Source: a virus
Direction: 5' to 3' (one strand)
Virus record (IMG/VR): IMGVR_UViG_3300035681_000151
Location: 1 to 20,740 of that record
Length of the DNA stretch: 20,740 bases
Part shown: one piece after another, positions 11,426 through 18,614 of the stretch
How the letters are laid out: each line of letters starts with the position of its first letter
Numbering within the stretch: the first letter of the stretch is position 1
Program-made: the position numbers and the translations under genes
Notes under the pieces: generated by a model
What the model was told of the DNA's origin: nothing
Seen by the model: only the letters and a program-made list of their open reading frames with translations
Database searches by the model: none

Positions 11426-13299
11426 AGGAAAGAAAAAACTTAGCTGCGCTCTTGAAACCTAAAACAGGTGAGGGTCTAGATGCAGCATATGAAACCACCA
11501 AAAACGTACAAGAGTCGGGCCCCTCTACAGAAGAGAATATCAAGGATATCAAAAAAGATATTCGTACTATGTCTGCTGATACTAAGGTTTTGGTTAAAGA
11601 AGCTAAGTCTAGCAACAAGATACTCAAAAGTATCGAAAAATCTTTAACACAGCCAAAACCTGATACACCTATAGAGCCCGTTCTTGCAGCACCCTCAAAA
11701 GTGGCTGTAGCACCCGTGCAGCTCAAACCTTCTGAAGATAAGAAGGAAGAGGGGAATGCAAATATTGCTTCAAATATTGGTGTGGGGGCCCTTGGGGGTG
11801 GTGTAGCAGCTGCGGGTGCTGTAGGCTTAAATGTGGCAGGAGAAGCTCTGAGTAATGTAGGATCTCGTGTTAGTACATTCTTCTCTAATATGGTATCAGG
11901 AAATGCAAGACCTGGTTTATCACAAGTTTTAGATGAAGAAGAAAGATTACAAAGAGAGGCAGTTGAAACAGTTCCTACAAGAGAGATGTTTGAGCAGGAT
12001 GTGCAAAGACAACAAGCTGAAGCCAATCAAGGCGCTGATTACGCCATGGCGACACAGACATTAGCAGCAGCAGGCATTTCACCCGTATCACCTGAAGGTC
12101 CTATCAGACCTGGGGGTAGGACAATGCAACCTGTTGAGTATGAACAGGCAGCACAAGCGCAAGCAGCAAGAGAAGCTGTGCAACGAGGAATGCGTCAAAG
12201 GACTCGAGGCGGTGGGTTGTCTGAACCTAGGATACCTACTGTCGAACAAGCTGCTCAGCAACCTGAATCACAAGTCGAACCCAGCGAAACAACTCAGATT
12301 AGTTTTTCAGAAGCAAAGTTTGCAGAGGCTGATCCTGAAAATTATAAAAGGTTTGTGGATTTTAGAAAGCAACGGTACAATGAAATTAAAGAAGAAGAAA
12401 AGAAAAAGGGATTTAGTGATTCTATAGCTAACGACATTGCTGAACCTAAAGCTAGAAAAGAAGCAATCATTAAATTTAGAAAAGAGATTGAAGCTGCAGC
12501 TGCTGGAGCAGTTAAAACTACTCAAAAAGGTCAAGAAAGTGGTCAACCACCTGCACCTGTAACAACATCACCTGTTGGTCAACAACCTGTAACAACATCA
12601 CCTGTTGGTCAACAACCTGCATCCTCTAGACTAACACGTGTTGAACAAACCTCTTCTTTTGATGCTGCAAAACTAGCTGATGAAGATCCTGAAACACATG
12701 CTAAATTTGTTGCAAGGCAGCGTGAAATCGTTAAGGAAAGAGAAGCTGAGCTAGAAAAAAGAACAGATCTATCACCTATGGCTAGAAATGTTGAAAGACA
12801 AAGGATTCAATCACAAGCATTTCAAACTGCAGCGAGAGAGTTCACCCCACAAGCAGCACAGGTAGGTGCAGCAACAGTTACAAGAACAGAATCTGGTGCA
12901 CAATCCACATTGCAAGTGACTCCCACACCAACACAAGGAACACCATATTCACCGGCAAGTCGAGAAAGTGTTTCGCAATCCGTGTCAGGAGTGATAATAC
13001 CTAGAGAGGACATTGATAGGCGCACCCAGCAATTGCTACAAAATAATCCTTATAAAGATGACCCTGCAGTAATGATTGATGCTCGTCAAGAAGCTGAGAT
13101 GGAATTGAAAGCAGAACGACTTAAGACATTATCTGCCGAGAATAAAGATTTGGGTAGAGAATCATTGCAACCCTCTACCCAACCTATTGTCATTCAAAGT
13201 AACAACAATATGAGCACGCAAACCTACACGCCAGTGCCTGCACAACCAAGAGTTGATTCTTCGTTCACCAGGCACCAGCAAAGGAATACAGCTTTTTAG
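11422..13299 (+). CDS. Probable tail tape-measure / hub protein (gp29 position)
   Basis: 625 residues, rich in Ala, Gln, Glu, Pro and Thr. The first ~90 residues are helical (NIKDIKKDIRTMSADTKVLV). A small Gly/Ala segment at about 112-150 (IGVGALGGGVAAAGAVGLNV) could cross a membrane. The centre alternates Pro/Gln-rich linkers with charged helices. Two similar helical blocks (about residues 294-360 and 411-475) begin SFSEAKFAEADPE and SFDAAKLADEDPE, pointing to an internal duplication. The end (TQPIVIQSNNNMSTQTYTP, then VDSSFTRHQQRNTAF) is like the C-termini I recall for T4-like tape-measure proteins. Position directly after the gp26/gp51 frameshift pair matches the general tail-gene order. 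T4 gp29 has 590 residues. The start has AAGGA and an ATGA overlap. The stop overlaps that of gene 32 on the other strand. Confidence 0.7.
   Translation: MKERKNLAALLKPKTGEGLDAAYETTKNVQESGPSTEENIKDIKKDIRTMSADTKVLVKEAKSSNKILKSIEKSLTQPKPDTPIEPVLAAPSKVAVAPVQLKPSEDKKEEGNANIASNIGVGALGGGVAAAGAVGLNVAGEALSNVGSRVSTFFSNMVSGNARPGLSQVLDEEERLQREAVETVPTREMFEQDVQRQQAEANQGADYAMATQTLAAAGISPVSPEGPIRPGGRTMQPVEYEQAAQAQAAREAVQRGMRQRTRGGGLSEPRIPTVEQAAQQPESQVEPSETTQISFSEAKFAEADPENYKRFVDFRKQRYNEIKEEEKKKGFSDSIANDIAEPKARKEAIIKFRKEIEAAAAGAVKTTQKGQESGQPPAPVTTSPVGQQPVTTSPVGQQPASSRLTRVEQTSSFDAAKLADEDPETHAKFVARQREIVKEREAELEKRTDLSPMARNVERQRIQSQAFQTAAREFTPQAAQVGAATVTRTESGAQSTLQVTPTPTQGTPYSPASRESVSQSVSGVIIPREDIDRRTQQLLQNNPYKDDPAVMIDARQEAEMELKAERLKTLSAENKDLGRESLQPSTQPIVIQSNNNMSTQTYTPVPAQPRVDSSFTRHQQRNTAF
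12556..12615 (+). repeat. Two perfect 30-bp tandem repeats inside the tape-measure gene
   Basis: Unit 12556-12585 is repeated exactly at 12586-12615, encoding PVTTSPVGQQ twice. A 30-base unit keeps the reading frame, so copy number could change without disrupting the protein. It lies in the linker between the two duplicated helical blocks. Confidence 0.9.
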
Positions 13300-14210
13300 T
13301 CGTCGTTTGCCAGCTTAGAGAAGTAGTTCAATGACTCATTGTCATCATCAAAGTTTACTTCTTCACGCTTAACAGGTTTGGTTTGCACAACTGCCTTAGG
13401 TTTAGCTTCAACCATAGGTGCGCTATCCAGTTCGATTTCTTCAGCGCGCTTTTGAGGTGCTGCATCACCCATGAGAACAGCATCAAGACGACGCTTGAGT
13501 TCATCGTAGGTTTTGAATCGAGCAGGATCACTAAACGCCTTAAGTGAATGTTGCTTTTCCCAGATTGCAGCGATATCATCATCGCTTGATGCAATAGGAG
13601 AAGGTGCAGCAAATTCACTCTTGTCGTAGTTGCGATATCCCTCGACCTTGCGAATCTTCAGCTTGAAGTTTGCGCCGTTCCAGAAATCAAACGGGTTGAG
13701 AGGGTCCTCATCTTCGAACTGAGGATCTGCAACATCTTTGATCTTGTCGAAGATTTTCTTACCAAAGCGATACAGGAACACTTTGCCATCATTGTCAGGG
13801 TTGCCAGGATCAGACACCACCTGAATGTTTGCAATGTAGACAAGGTTACGCTTCTGTTTGCGAGCAGTGTTCTTATCGTCATCGCTTCCGGTGTTCCAAA
13901 GACGATTGTTCAGTTCGCTGACAGGATCAGGCAACCCAATCGTGGTCAACGAATCTTCGATGTACCACTTGCCTGTAGGACCTTGGAATCCATGATTCCA
14001 GATACGAACCCAAGGAAGATCCTCACCTTTGGGGGGAGGAAGGAATCGAATGACTGCGTAGCCATTGCCTGCCTTGTCAACAGTTGGTTGCCAGAATCGA
14101 TTATCTTCGTTGGAGTTGCTCTGCGGTTTAGAGATCTTCTCAACCTCTTTCATAAGGTTTTCAAAGCCGCCGCGAGATTTTTTGAGGTCAGAAAGTGAAG
14201 TGAAAGTCAT
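13296..14210 (-). CDS. 32: Single-stranded DNA-binding protein gp32
   Basis: 304 residues (T4: 301). Matches include GGFENLMKEVEKISKP near the start, RFWQPTVDKAGNGYAVIRFL, the core GPTGKWYIEDSLTTIGLPDP, and VFLYRFGKKIFDKIKD followed by LNPFDFWNGANFKLKIRKVE and GYRNYDKSEF. The protein coats single-stranded DNA during replication, recombination and repair. The whole protein contains no cysteine, so the zinc-binding subdomain of T4 gp32 (His-Cys3) is not conserved. The end is acidic (DDDNESLNYFSKLANDD), corresponding to the partner-recruiting tail. AAAGGAAA lies upstream of the ATG. It sits downstream of gp33 and gp59 as in T4, and converges on the tape-measure gene with overlapping stops. Confidence 0.95.
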   Translation of the reverse strand: MTFTSLSDLKKSRGGFENLMKEVEKISKPQSNSNEDNRFWQPTVDKAGNGYAVIRFLPPPKGEDLPWVRIWNHGFQGPTGKWYIEDSLTTIGLPDPVSELNNRLWNTGSDDDKNTARKQKRNLVYIANIQVVSDPGNPDNDGKVFLYRFGKKIFDKIKDVADPQFEDEDPLNPFDFWNGANFKLKIRKVEGYRNYDKSEFAAPSPIASSDDDIAAIWEKQHSLKAFSDPARFKTYDELKRRLDAVLMGDAAPQKRAEEIELDSAPMVEAKPKAVVQTKPVKREEVNFDDDNESLNYFSKLANDD

Positions 14211-16696: not shown

Positions 16697-17134
16697 TTAG
16701 AAAGACATTCTGACCCCTGCGGTAAAGATGCCGCCACGGAAATCAGTCTTTGATTGAATGTCCCAGTTGTAAGTATAGTCGACTACAGCTGAGACACCTT
16801 TGAAAAGAGGCACAGAAACTTCAACACCTGTATTACCCACGCCTCCACTTTCTTTGCCAGCAACGTCGGTGCTAATATAACCCAATCCCGCATGGGGGGT
16901 AACACCAACTCGCCAGACTTTGAATTCCCTGCCAACAGATGCCCCAATGGTAGCGTATTTGTCTAGCACACCACCAGCCTCTGCAGAAACCTTAAGGCCT
17001 GCAACTGAAGTGCCTGCTGACAACACATAAAGGGTATCATCTACATTACGATCACGACCCACCGACAGGCCTACCTCAAGCGCGTTTGCACTAAAAGCGA
17101 CTGCACACAACGAAGCAATAACAAGTTTCTTCAT
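16697..17134 (-). CDS. Small secreted outer-membrane beta-barrel-like protein
   Basis: 145 residues from the ATG at 17134, which is preceded by AAGGAG; a longer frame reaches 17191 but lacks this site and would bury the signal peptide. Residues 1-18 (MKKLVIASLCAVAFSANA) are a Sec signal peptide with an AxA-type cleavage site. The rest alternates polar and hydrophobic residues in about eight short strands (LEVGLSVGRD, LYVLSAGTSV, VGVTPHAGLG, AVVDYTYNWD) and ends with GVRMSF, the terminal Phe used by the BAM complex for barrel insertion. It is therefore probably an 8-stranded outer-membrane barrel. A late-type promoter lies about 60 bases upstream. Roles such as blocking superinfection, altering permeability or helping lysis are speculation. 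Confidence 0.7.
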   Translation of the reverse strand: MKKLVIASLCAVAFSANALEVGLSVGRDRNVDDTLYVLSAGTSVAGLKVSAEAGGVLDKYATIGASVGREFKVWRVGVTPHAGLGYISTDVAGKESGGVGNTGVEVSVPLFKGVSAVVDYTYNWDIQSKTDFRGGIFTAGVRMSF

Positions 17135-17193
17135 AAGATCTCCTTGAATTAGACGGGTATTCTTTGCGCTGGGAACCCGCCGAAACCCCATAA

Positions 17194-17203
17194 CTTATTT
17201 ATA
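17194..17203 (-). promoter_or_regulatory. Late promoter (TATAAATAAG) for the outer-membrane protein gene
   Basis: The minus strand has TATAAATAAG, containing the perfect T4 late core TATAAATA. It lies 59 bases before the ATG at 17134 and directly after the last stem of the tmRNA coding piece, so the tmRNA and this gene have separable starts. Confidence 0.75.
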
Positions 17204-17253
17204 GTGTCAGTTGATTCTGTTGCCAAGTCCAACTGACAAAACTCCGTCCTAGC

Positions 17254-17289
17254 TTAAGCTGCTAGGGCAAAACGCTCATCGTTTGCTGC
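17254..17289 (-). other. tmRNA proteolysis-tag reading frame (AANDERFALAA)
   Basis: Codons GCA GCA AAC GAT GAG CGT TTT GCC CTA GCA GCT TAA encode AANDERFALAA, close to E. coli ANDENYALAA and ending in the ALAA degron read by ClpXP/ClpAP. Two GCA codons stand in tandem, so the resume codon may be the first (extra Ala) or the second. The stop lies in the loop of helix 5. Confidence 0.9.
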
Positions 17290-17374
17290 GTTTATTTTGA
17301 TTTACTTTTAACGACTCTCTGTGTCGGACTGTCTGTTTTCCTACTCTTTGCCCTGTCGAAACCAGGTCAGGCCC

Positions 17375-17450
17375 ATCAAAAGCACTCTGGCGTCTCCTCT
17401 ATCCAGATTTGATGTATACGTATCTAGAAAATACACATGGACGGTGCTTT
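17375..17450 (-). other. tmRNA intervening segment, removed on maturation
   Basis: This 76-base stretch separates the encoded CCA end of the acceptor piece from the 5' end of the coding piece. AAAAGCAC (17378-17385) and GTGCTTTT (17444-17451) form a perfect 8-bp inverted repeat, so in the precursor the segment would extend the tRNA-like acceptor stem as a hairpin next to the RNase P and 3'-trimming sites. Confidence 0.8.
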
Positions 17451-17517
17451 TGGTGGACCTGGGCGGAATCGAACCGCCGTCCAGAACACCTTTTGGTCAA
17501 CTTCATACAGTCATAAT

Positions 17518-17589
17518 CACACTTTGTTTGGATTCGAACCTTGTTCTAGTATTGTCTATCTGCGCTTCCCACAGTGCTGACAAAGTGTG
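17518..17589 (-). repeat. 10-bp inverted repeat closing a tRNA-like 5' stem-loop of the tmRNA precursor
   Basis: CACACTTTGT (17518-17527) and ACAAAGTGTG (17580-17589) are perfectly complementary. The enclosed 52 bases hold GGTTCGAATCC on the minus strand, which looks like a tRNA T loop but with only two stem pairs. The block follows the late promoter directly, so it is probably the 5' leader of the tmRNA transcript or a decayed tRNA. Confidence 0.7.
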
Positions 17590-17592
17590 TTA

Positions 17593-17602
17593 CTTATTTA
17601 TT
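17593..17602 (-). promoter_or_regulatory. Late promoter (AATAAATAAG) for the tmRNA
   Basis: The minus strand reads AATAAATAAG, four bases before the 10-bp stem that opens the tmRNA precursor. It overlaps the stop codon of pstS. It has the same core as the other late-promoter motifs here and suggests late expression of tmRNA independent of pstS. Confidence 0.65.
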
Positions 17603-18569
17603 TGACTTGCTTATTAATCATTTGCTCAACAGTCATACCGACCACATTGTGTCCTCCGAAGATGGTGCCCACTCGCCTATCAGCGACAATCTTAAGATTG
17701 TTTTTATAGACACTATCGGGTAGAGGAACATACTTAACCTCTCTTGAGATTTTGGGTGCATTCGCCATATAGAATTCAACAAACCTACGCACCTCAGGCC
17801 TATCGAGTGACTTTACAGACACATAAATGAAGATAGGTCTGCTAAGAGGGTTGTAAGTTCCATCCATCACAGAAGTTTCACTAGGTGGTGTAGGTTGCCC
17901 AGAGGCGTTTACAATAGACACTGATTGAAGTTTGTCTTTATGCTCCGCATAGTATGCAAACCCAAAGTAACCTAAGCTATTAACATCTCGACTTACACCT
18001 AACACAAGAACATTATCATCTTCTGATGCCGTGAAGTCACCCCTACTAGCTTTGCTACGACCGACGATTGCCTCTGTAAAGTAATCAAAAGTTCCTGAAT
18101 CAGTTCCAGCACCGAACAACTTTAATGGTGCATTGGGCCAAGCGGGATTTATTTGATTCCAATGAGTAACCTTTCCTTGTGCAGCGGGTTCCCAAATCCT
18201 TTTAAGTTGTGCAACAGTCATTGTTTTTGCCCAAGTGTTCTTGGGATGAATAACAACAGTCAATGCATCAAAGGCGACAGGAAGTTCTAGAAACTCTATG
18301 CCTGTTTGTTTACATGCTTGAATTTCTGATTCTGAAATAGGACGACTTGCATTCTGTACATCAATCTCACCCCTACAAAATTTCTTGAACCCGCCTCCTG
18401 TTCCCGATACACCCACGGTGACCTTAGTTTTTGTTGCCTTCTGATAATCTTCTGCAATACCTTCTGTTATAGGAAACACGGTACTTGAACCGTCCACTCT
18501 TACAGTTTGAGCTTGTGCAACAGTTACAAATCCAACAGCAATCGCTAGTAAAAAATTATGAACTCGCAT
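17598..18569 (-). CDS. pstS: Periplasmic phosphate-binding protein PstS
   Basis: 323 residues from the ATG at 18569, chosen because AAAGGAGG lies just upstream and a signal peptide follows at once ([20 protein letters not shown], cleavage near AQA-QT). The mature protein begins [20 protein letters not shown] and continues with [20 protein letters not shown] and [11 protein letters not shown], the phosphate-loop signatures of PstS/Sph[19 protein letters not shown] and [12 protein letters not shown] complete the family pattern. In bacteria PstS delivers phosphate to the PstCAB transporter. pstS is a well-known auxiliary gene of marine phages, thought to keep phosphate flowing for DNA synthesis in poor waters. 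No pstCAB is present here, so it must use the host transporter. A Pho-box-like site and a late promoter lie upstream. Confidence 0.93.
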
Positions 18570-18614
18570 ATGACCTCCTTTTGTTAGTGTCATATTTTAT
18601 CTATATATTTAACT

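Follow-up and report, generated by a model that had tools for sequence, protein, structure and literature searches.

We found that a 20,740-nucleotide stretch of viral DNA (IMG/VR record IMGVR_UViG_3300035681_000151, positions 1 to 20,740; the whole stretch is called the window below) contains a circularly permuted, two-piece tmRNA gene. Judged by sequence comparison, and with a probability that we put at about 0.8, this is a working gene kept by a lineage of T4-like phages, in which the loop of the intervening sequence (IVS) serves as an insertion slot and a separate structured RNA beside the gene, designated element A, belongs to the same pool as the slot contents.

Structure of the two-piece tmRNA gene

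ARAGORN called a single gene on the minus strand, a permuted tmRNA (tmRNA*) at 17163-17543 with the tag AANDERFALAA*. In a cmscan search, the Rfam model RF04321 (tmRNA_permuted) matched 17254-17512 with 126.8 bits against a cut-off of 47 (E 6.6e-25), and RF01850 (beta_tmRNA) matched 17181-17567 with 122 bits against a cut-off of 84 (E 4.1e-37). RF01850 was the clan winner among the alpha, beta and cyano models, which places the gene in the beta type. A sequence-only reading of this DNA had proposed the order acceptor piece, 76-base intervening segment and coding piece, with ends at 17451 and 17374, and had held that a failure of every tmRNA model to reach its threshold would speak against it. 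Both models scored well above threshold, and the order and the two ends proved right to the base.

All of the following features lie on the minus strand. The acceptor piece (17451-17512; its 5' end is approximate and taken from the start of the RF04321 match at 17512) contains the T arm GGCGG-UUCGAUU-CCGCC, with a T stem paired at 5/5 positions (17462-17478), and finishes at 17451 with the acceptor strand and an encoded CCA (17451-17461). It is followed by an IVS of exactly 76 nt (17375-17450), which is not part of the mature tmRNA, and by the coding piece, which starts with GGGCCUG at 17374 and extends to about 17181 (the 3' end is approximate, at 17163 by ARAGORN and 17181 by Rfam). The coding piece holds the 5' strand of the acceptor stem (17368-17374), the D-arm motif, the resume site, the tag, helix 5 and the pseudoknot, for which a GUCAGUUG/CAACUGAC hairpin predicted by folding (17206-17237) is the probable region. 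The tag reading frame, AANDERFALAA with the stop codon UAA (17254-17289, from ARAGORN and the sequence), possesses a resume codon, a stop and a hydrophobic Ala-Ala end, and its stop codon is situated in the loop of helix 5 (CCUAGC/GCUAGG, 17248-17266, read from the sequence). The acceptor stem GGGCCUG/CAGGUCC is paired at 7/7 positions across the permuted junction, with the G3-U70 wobble, the alanine signal, in third place, and is followed by ACCA. The stem, the 5-bp T stem, the D-arm motif and the ALAA-ending tag with its stop in the helix-5 loop had all been described in the sequence-only reading and were all recovered. One correction concerns its range of 17205-17589, whose upper bound takes in element A (17518-17589), which does not belong to the tmRNA. 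Over 5338 nt spanning the tmRNA locus, the window has 100% identity with an independent contig (L361), so an assembly accident is unlikely.

Genome setting and conservation in the phage lineage

The earlier claim of a T4-like genome is upheld by PHROGs matches (gp32, gp59, gp19 tail tube, DNA end protector and hub proteins) and Pfam matches (gp5, gp25, gp33-type late coactivator and PhoH), in which T4-type structural, replication and late-transcription genes are all represented; together with the Rfam results, this establishes a beta-type permuted tmRNA inside a T4-like phage. The gene is flanked on the same strand by a gene for a PstS-like phosphate-binding protein upstream (17598-18593, minus strand; Pfam PBP_like_2, E 1.5e-37; phrog_5385) and by a gene for a small, presumably secreted protein of 145 aa with a signal-peptide-like start downstream (16697-17134, minus strand), for which the searches gave no family assignment. 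The pstS-like gene next to the tmRNA and the PhoH gene nearby suggest phosphate-related auxiliary genes.

Using the gene of the gp32 single-strand DNA-binding protein (13296-14210, minus strand; phrog_224, E 3.9e-114) as a synteny anchor, we fetched 80 related viral loci. A permuted tmRNA was present in 27 of the 29 relatives that have at least 7 kb of DNA upstream of gp32, always on the strand of gp32 and at a distance of 2.8-6.9 kb, and Rfam also detected one in two relatives with less upstream DNA (L187 and L139). By this synteny, the permuted tmRNA is a near-universal gene of the lineage and not a sporadic capture.

The functional parts of the gene are also maintained. When permuted genes of phages and bacteria were parsed without a pairing requirement, the acceptor stem was paired at 7/7 positions in 135 of 147, and its letters vary among relatives in compensated pairs, giving several compensated stem sequences. 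The pattern of the first scan fixed letters of the acceptor piece, U70 included, and their conservation is not counted as evidence; the IVS contents and the gp32-anchored set are free of this bias, and the loci found through gp32 that could be parsed had G3-U70. The tags of the relatives are open frames ending in ALAA or close variants, and that of the window keeps the canonical ALAA degron. Seven gp32 relatives (L180-L182, L184 and L189-L191) have the tag ANDNSYRMVA, with an MVA end instead of LAA; LMAA, LIAA, ALVA and LKLAA are further tag ends seen in phages.

Origin of the phage tmRNA

The sequence-only reading had suggested capture from a host with a permuted tmRNA and had leaned on the rarity of such genes in phages. 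A tree of the tmRNA pieces (187 columns, with bootstrap values not fully settled) grouped the window with L126, L128 and L130 at 100/97, and these phages are among its nearest by gp32 (75%, 75% and 72% identity, respectively). Since the gene is syntenic in the lineage (27/29) and groups with the nearest gp32 relatives, a recent host capture is unlikely and finds no support. The rarity argument fails as well, because two-piece phage tmRNAs have been published and our acceptor-piece pattern scan of IMG/VR contigs gave more than 100 permuted tmRNAs among the matches listed. In the same tree, phage and beta-bacterial sequences split together from the alpha-type sequences at 100/100, which makes an old acquisition from a beta-type source plausible, and the beta-type sequences of phages and bacteria were intermixed, so that a host origin at some time is likely. 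From these relationships, we consider it likely that the gene passed between a beta-type source and phages long ago, in either direction.

Of 150 genomes sampled from the order to which Cupriavidus belongs, only 5 had a beta-type permuted tmRNA scoring above the cut-off. Several Cupriavidus genomes (L216, L218, L222 and L227-L233) carry extra permuted tmRNA copies with the tag ANDEKFALAA on plasmids and secondary replicons, with up to five strong matches per genome; these copies are unannotated in PLSDB, and their acceptor piece is 95% identical to that of the window over 42 nt.

Intervening sequences as exchangeable cassettes

The IVSs of phage tmRNAs are longer than those of beta bacteria, with a median of 84 nt (n=137, range 20-398) versus 32 nt (n=16), the bacterial IVS being a small hairpin of about 32 nt. 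Their ends form a closing helix, in which 7 or 8 of the 8 positions are paired in 117 of 119 IVSs; after the 5' and 3' ends had been re-dealt among IVSs, this share was 48%. TGAT is the last motif in 102 of the 119. In the window, the ends pair as AAAGCAC/GUGCUUU and are followed by the conserved UGAU. The 76-nt IVS of the window has a homolog only in the identical contig L361 and matched none of the other IVSs; its predicted fold is not better than that of shuffled sequences (z = -1.0), and it is noncoding, as an ORF filling it was not found.

The contents of the IVS are exchanged independently of the tmRNA around them. L126 and L128 have acceptor pieces 98% alike and coding pieces 99% alike, and yet their IVSs are unrelated (398 vs 119 nt); similar tmRNAs with unrelated IVSs also occur in the pairs L029/L079, L042/L063 and L016/L029. 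Conversely, L071 and L090 share an IVS that is 99% alike, while their coding pieces are 74% alike and their tags differ. Counting pairs that are not independent and that were partly parsed in a cruder way, 52 of the 74 with coding pieces at least 90% alike had IVSs less than 60% alike, and 21 with coding pieces less than 75% alike had IVSs at least 80% in common; the key pairs, such as L126/L128, were recomputed with the refined IVS parse. On this evidence, the phage IVS looks like a swappable cassette rather than the ~32-nt hairpin of beta bacteria, and it looks new: the open papers that we covered gave no description of IVS cargo in phages.

Known ribozymes and riboswitches were considered as IVS contents and rejected, as no Rfam family fits; only tmRNA families were above threshold in 18 loci, and in the window stretch at E up to 5. 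The 237-nt IVS of L063 (1084-1625) resembles two tandem cassettes, the first of which is tRNA-like, with GATGGTGGTGCTCCACCA between them.

Small open reading frames in the intervening sequences

In several IVS families, the 5' arm of the closing helix carries a Shine-Dalgarno-like AAAGGA with a start codon after it, and the frame often stops at the TGA of the conserved TGAT; the Shine-Dalgarno and ATG letters were preset in one of the ORF search patterns, and their conservation is not counted as evidence. Homologous IVS ORFs occur in tmRNAs with different tags. With one pair taken per family, dN/dS was 0.15 (L029/L107), 0.14 (L006/L301), 0.05 (L312/L335) and 0.16 (L300/L306), while the remaining pairs of these short ORFs gave 0.27-0.84 or were too close to tell. 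Some IVSs of relatives thus appear to carry genes for small proteins on which purifying selection acts. Most IVSs do not code for protein, since only 9 of 74 in an unbiased set were filled by an ORF, against 3.6 expected. The searches against Pfam and PHROGs gave no clear family for the IVS ORFs. The 398-nt IVS of L126 (6847-7546) contains an ORF of 124 aa (MLSFRNFTESREDPHLYHATYRIHMD...), which is identical in a second contig (L313, 66-445) and for which a Pfam or PHROGs family was not found.

Element A and phage tRNA arrays

Element A (17518-17589, minus strand; model match of 98.9 bits) is located directly 5' of the acceptor piece and starts 8 nt downstream of the pstS-like gene. It consists of a 56-nt core, a 10-bp stem (P1), a GUGGGA hairpin and a UUCGAAU T-loop. 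The letters of the closing 10-bp stem differ among copies while its pairing stays: over 21 copies, 91.3% of cells were paired versus 72.2% after shuffling (0 of 500 shuffles as high), two-sided changes numbered 78 versus 23 in shuffles, and sliding the partners by one base reduced the pairing to 30-40%. The inner hairpin GCACU-GUGGGA-AGCGC covaries too. The T-loop was invariant, its letters having been preset in the search pattern; the core letters were likewise fixed by the scan patterns, and the arms and contexts are free of this bias.

Element A resembles a tRNA in its T-loop, its GG-containing hairpin loop, its closing stem of about acceptor-stem size and its location in tRNA arrays, whereas it differs in having no anticodon arm, no CCA and a T stem of only 2 bp. 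ARAGORN made no tRNA call on it, even at lowered thresholds. A decayed tRNA was rejected as well, since the core is near-invariant, the helices covary and the anticodon arm is not conserved. Searches for a known counterpart were negative: no Rfam family was above threshold (18 loci, and the window stretch at E up to 5), two variants of the element had no match among INPHARED isolated phages, and it was found neither in 120 genomes of the order of a beta-type tmRNA carrier, in a search without a positive control, nor in 69 bacterial tmRNA loci. From its covariation, element A appears to be a tRNA-elbow-like RNA separate from the tmRNA, and it looks new.

A total of 74 of its 104 copies adjoin tRNA or tmRNA genes: 32 have a tRNA gene on either side, 22 immediately precede a permuted tmRNA, as in the window, 10 are within a tmRNA IVS and 10 have a single tRNA gene as neighbor. 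Other IVS families, too, turn up repeatedly between tRNA genes. In phage tRNA arrays, 29 of 72 gaps measuring 55-200 nt are closed by a perfect helix of 8 bp or more, versus 5 of 72 after shuffling. In the arrays of L365, L376, L342 and L352, tRNAs alternate with closed hairpin elements (families A, E and G), and small ORFs with Shine-Dalgarno sites also lie between the tRNAs.

Proposed function and alternatives

We propose that host tRNA-processing enzymes probably cut one transcript into two RNAs, the acceptor and the coding one, which then re-pair; RNase P would act at the 5' end of the coding piece, and 3' processing would follow the CCA. The re-paired tmRNA would be charged with alanine via G3-U70, bind host SmpB and rescue stalled ribosomes in the infected cell, adding the tag AANDERFALAA. 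SmpB was not found in 15 long records of phages with a permuted tmRNA (the window itself is a 20.7-kb genome fragment), and the host protein presumably serves the phage tmRNA. A 215-kb, putatively viral record (L065/L378) carries a standard tmRNA with the tag ANDESFAVAA together with a full SmpB (E 3.9e-54). In 12 of 36 lineage genes, against 2 expected, the T4 late-promoter-like motif NATAAATA lies ahead of the acceptor piece, which hints at late expression. For the window itself, the indication is weak: the T4-type late-promoter-like octamer UAUAAAUA at 17196-17203 (minus strand) is one of 2 in the window against 1.2 expected. This octamer, TATAAATA, sits at the 3' end of the tmRNA gene and precedes the next gene.

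Ribosome rescue and tagging during infection is the best reading of these features, and we infer from the conservation of the gene that it benefits the phage. If the tmRNA were instead a recently captured host gene, carried as a passenger without a selected function, the intermixing of phage and bacterial beta-type tmRNAs and the mobile Cupriavidus copies with their 95% identical acceptor piece would be expected; its near-universal syntenic presence, its clustering with the gp32-nearest phages and the compensated changes in the acceptor stem make this idea very hard to sustain. An improbable but somewhat better alternative is that the phage RNA acts as a decoy or regulator, dampening host trans-translation by binding to SmpB or to ribosomes, in line with what is reported on the tag-less tmRNA of phage DS6A. 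Such a tag-less phage form is reported to inhibit the endogenous tmRNA in E. coli (PMC11915505), and a phage tmRNA without its own SmpB, as in the 15 records, must compete for the host protein. However, a decoy would have no need of a tag frame, and the tag, resume site, stop codon, G3-U70 and CCA are all intact in the window, with tags in the relatives likewise open and ending in ALAA or close variants.

Alongside the working tmRNA, we propose that the hairpin loop of the IVS is the slot, in which a structured RNA or a small ORF would be swapped by homologous recombination across the conserved flanks, and that processing of tRNAs or tmRNA pieces would free whatever sits between them. Element A would be a separate tRNA-elbow-like RNA from the same pool as the IVS contents; our guess is that its fold may recruit tRNA-processing enzymes and help to define where the acceptor piece begins. 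We give even odds to a broader form of this proposal, namely that the IVS is a modular gene-delivery slot, that tmRNA processing also frees a second product, which is either a small RNA with structure or a mini-mRNA encoding a small protein, often one of the membrane, that the pool of element A fills phage tRNA gaps too, and that the cassettes form a system operating through tRNA processing and not transposition. A possible, though to us rather doubtful, alternative is that the contents are selfish, hitchhiking or mere spacer without service to the phage, and the slot simply a harmless place. The extreme diversity and swapping of the contents fit this alternative, as do the repetitive element and the tRNA-Ala reported in single IVSs of other genomes (PMC11915505), whereas the purifying selection on homologous ORFs across tmRNAs with different tags, the covarying helices of element A and its tRNA or tmRNA neighbors in 74/104 copies argue for a service.

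Trans-translation in phages has been little studied. A near-universal syntenic phage tmRNA suggests that ribosome rescue is worth keeping in infection despite the host's own system. If confirmed by RNA data, the IVS slot and element A would be a new means for phages to keep small RNAs and tiny genes and to pass them among themselves; gene callers miss such contents because of their position within a noncoding RNA gene or tRNA array. Some phages with genes of this kind can be cultured.

Comparison with known systems

The tmRNA of the window is already known in kind, because two-piece phage tmRNAs have been published. In their 2022 report, Buchholz and colleagues listed 53 two-piece tmRNA structures in a 2021 phage database, 50 of them marine or aquatic, with the T4-like Methylophilales phage Melnitz among them (PMC9004378); 79 sequences in the tmRNA database come from phages (PMC11915505). 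Melnitz resembles the window in being a T4-like aquatic phage with a permuted tmRNA, and gp32 relatives of the window were found among the same isolates. However, its ssrA is alpha-type and is said to be under a glutamine riboswitch, whereas the window has a beta-type gene with element A upstream, and an IVS serving as a cargo slot is not described in the available part of the Melnitz account (PMC9004378).

ARAGORN found permuted tmRNAs in the isolated Stenotrophomonas phages of the T4-like genus Menderavirus (Marzo, Moby and Mendera) and in Xanthomonas phage X1; the gene of Marzo is annotated as tmRNA. The hosts, Stenotrophomonas and Xanthomonas, are Gammaproteobacteria with a one-piece tmRNA. 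Like the window, these phages have an IVS longer than that of beta bacteria, and the Menderavirus acceptor piece matches that of the window at about 75%; they differ in their tags (VAANDDSYTVRIAA and VAANDADYSVARYA) and IVS contents, and the Marzo gene lies in a tRNA cluster. Betaproteobacterial tmRNA (RF01850, e.g. Cupriavidus) shares with the window the gene order, a model match above the cut-off and the plan of the IVS, a hairpin with GAAGCAC/GUGCUUC-like arms followed by UGAU, but its IVS has about 32 nt, compared with 76 nt in the window and as many as 398 nt in its relatives. Single permuted tmRNAs in cellular genomes contain a tRNA-Ala gene or a repetitive element inside the IVS as isolated oddities (PMC11915505). 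These cases resemble the phage genes in their foreign IVS content, whereas in phages the contents are of many kinds, occur repeatedly and move from one tmRNA to another.
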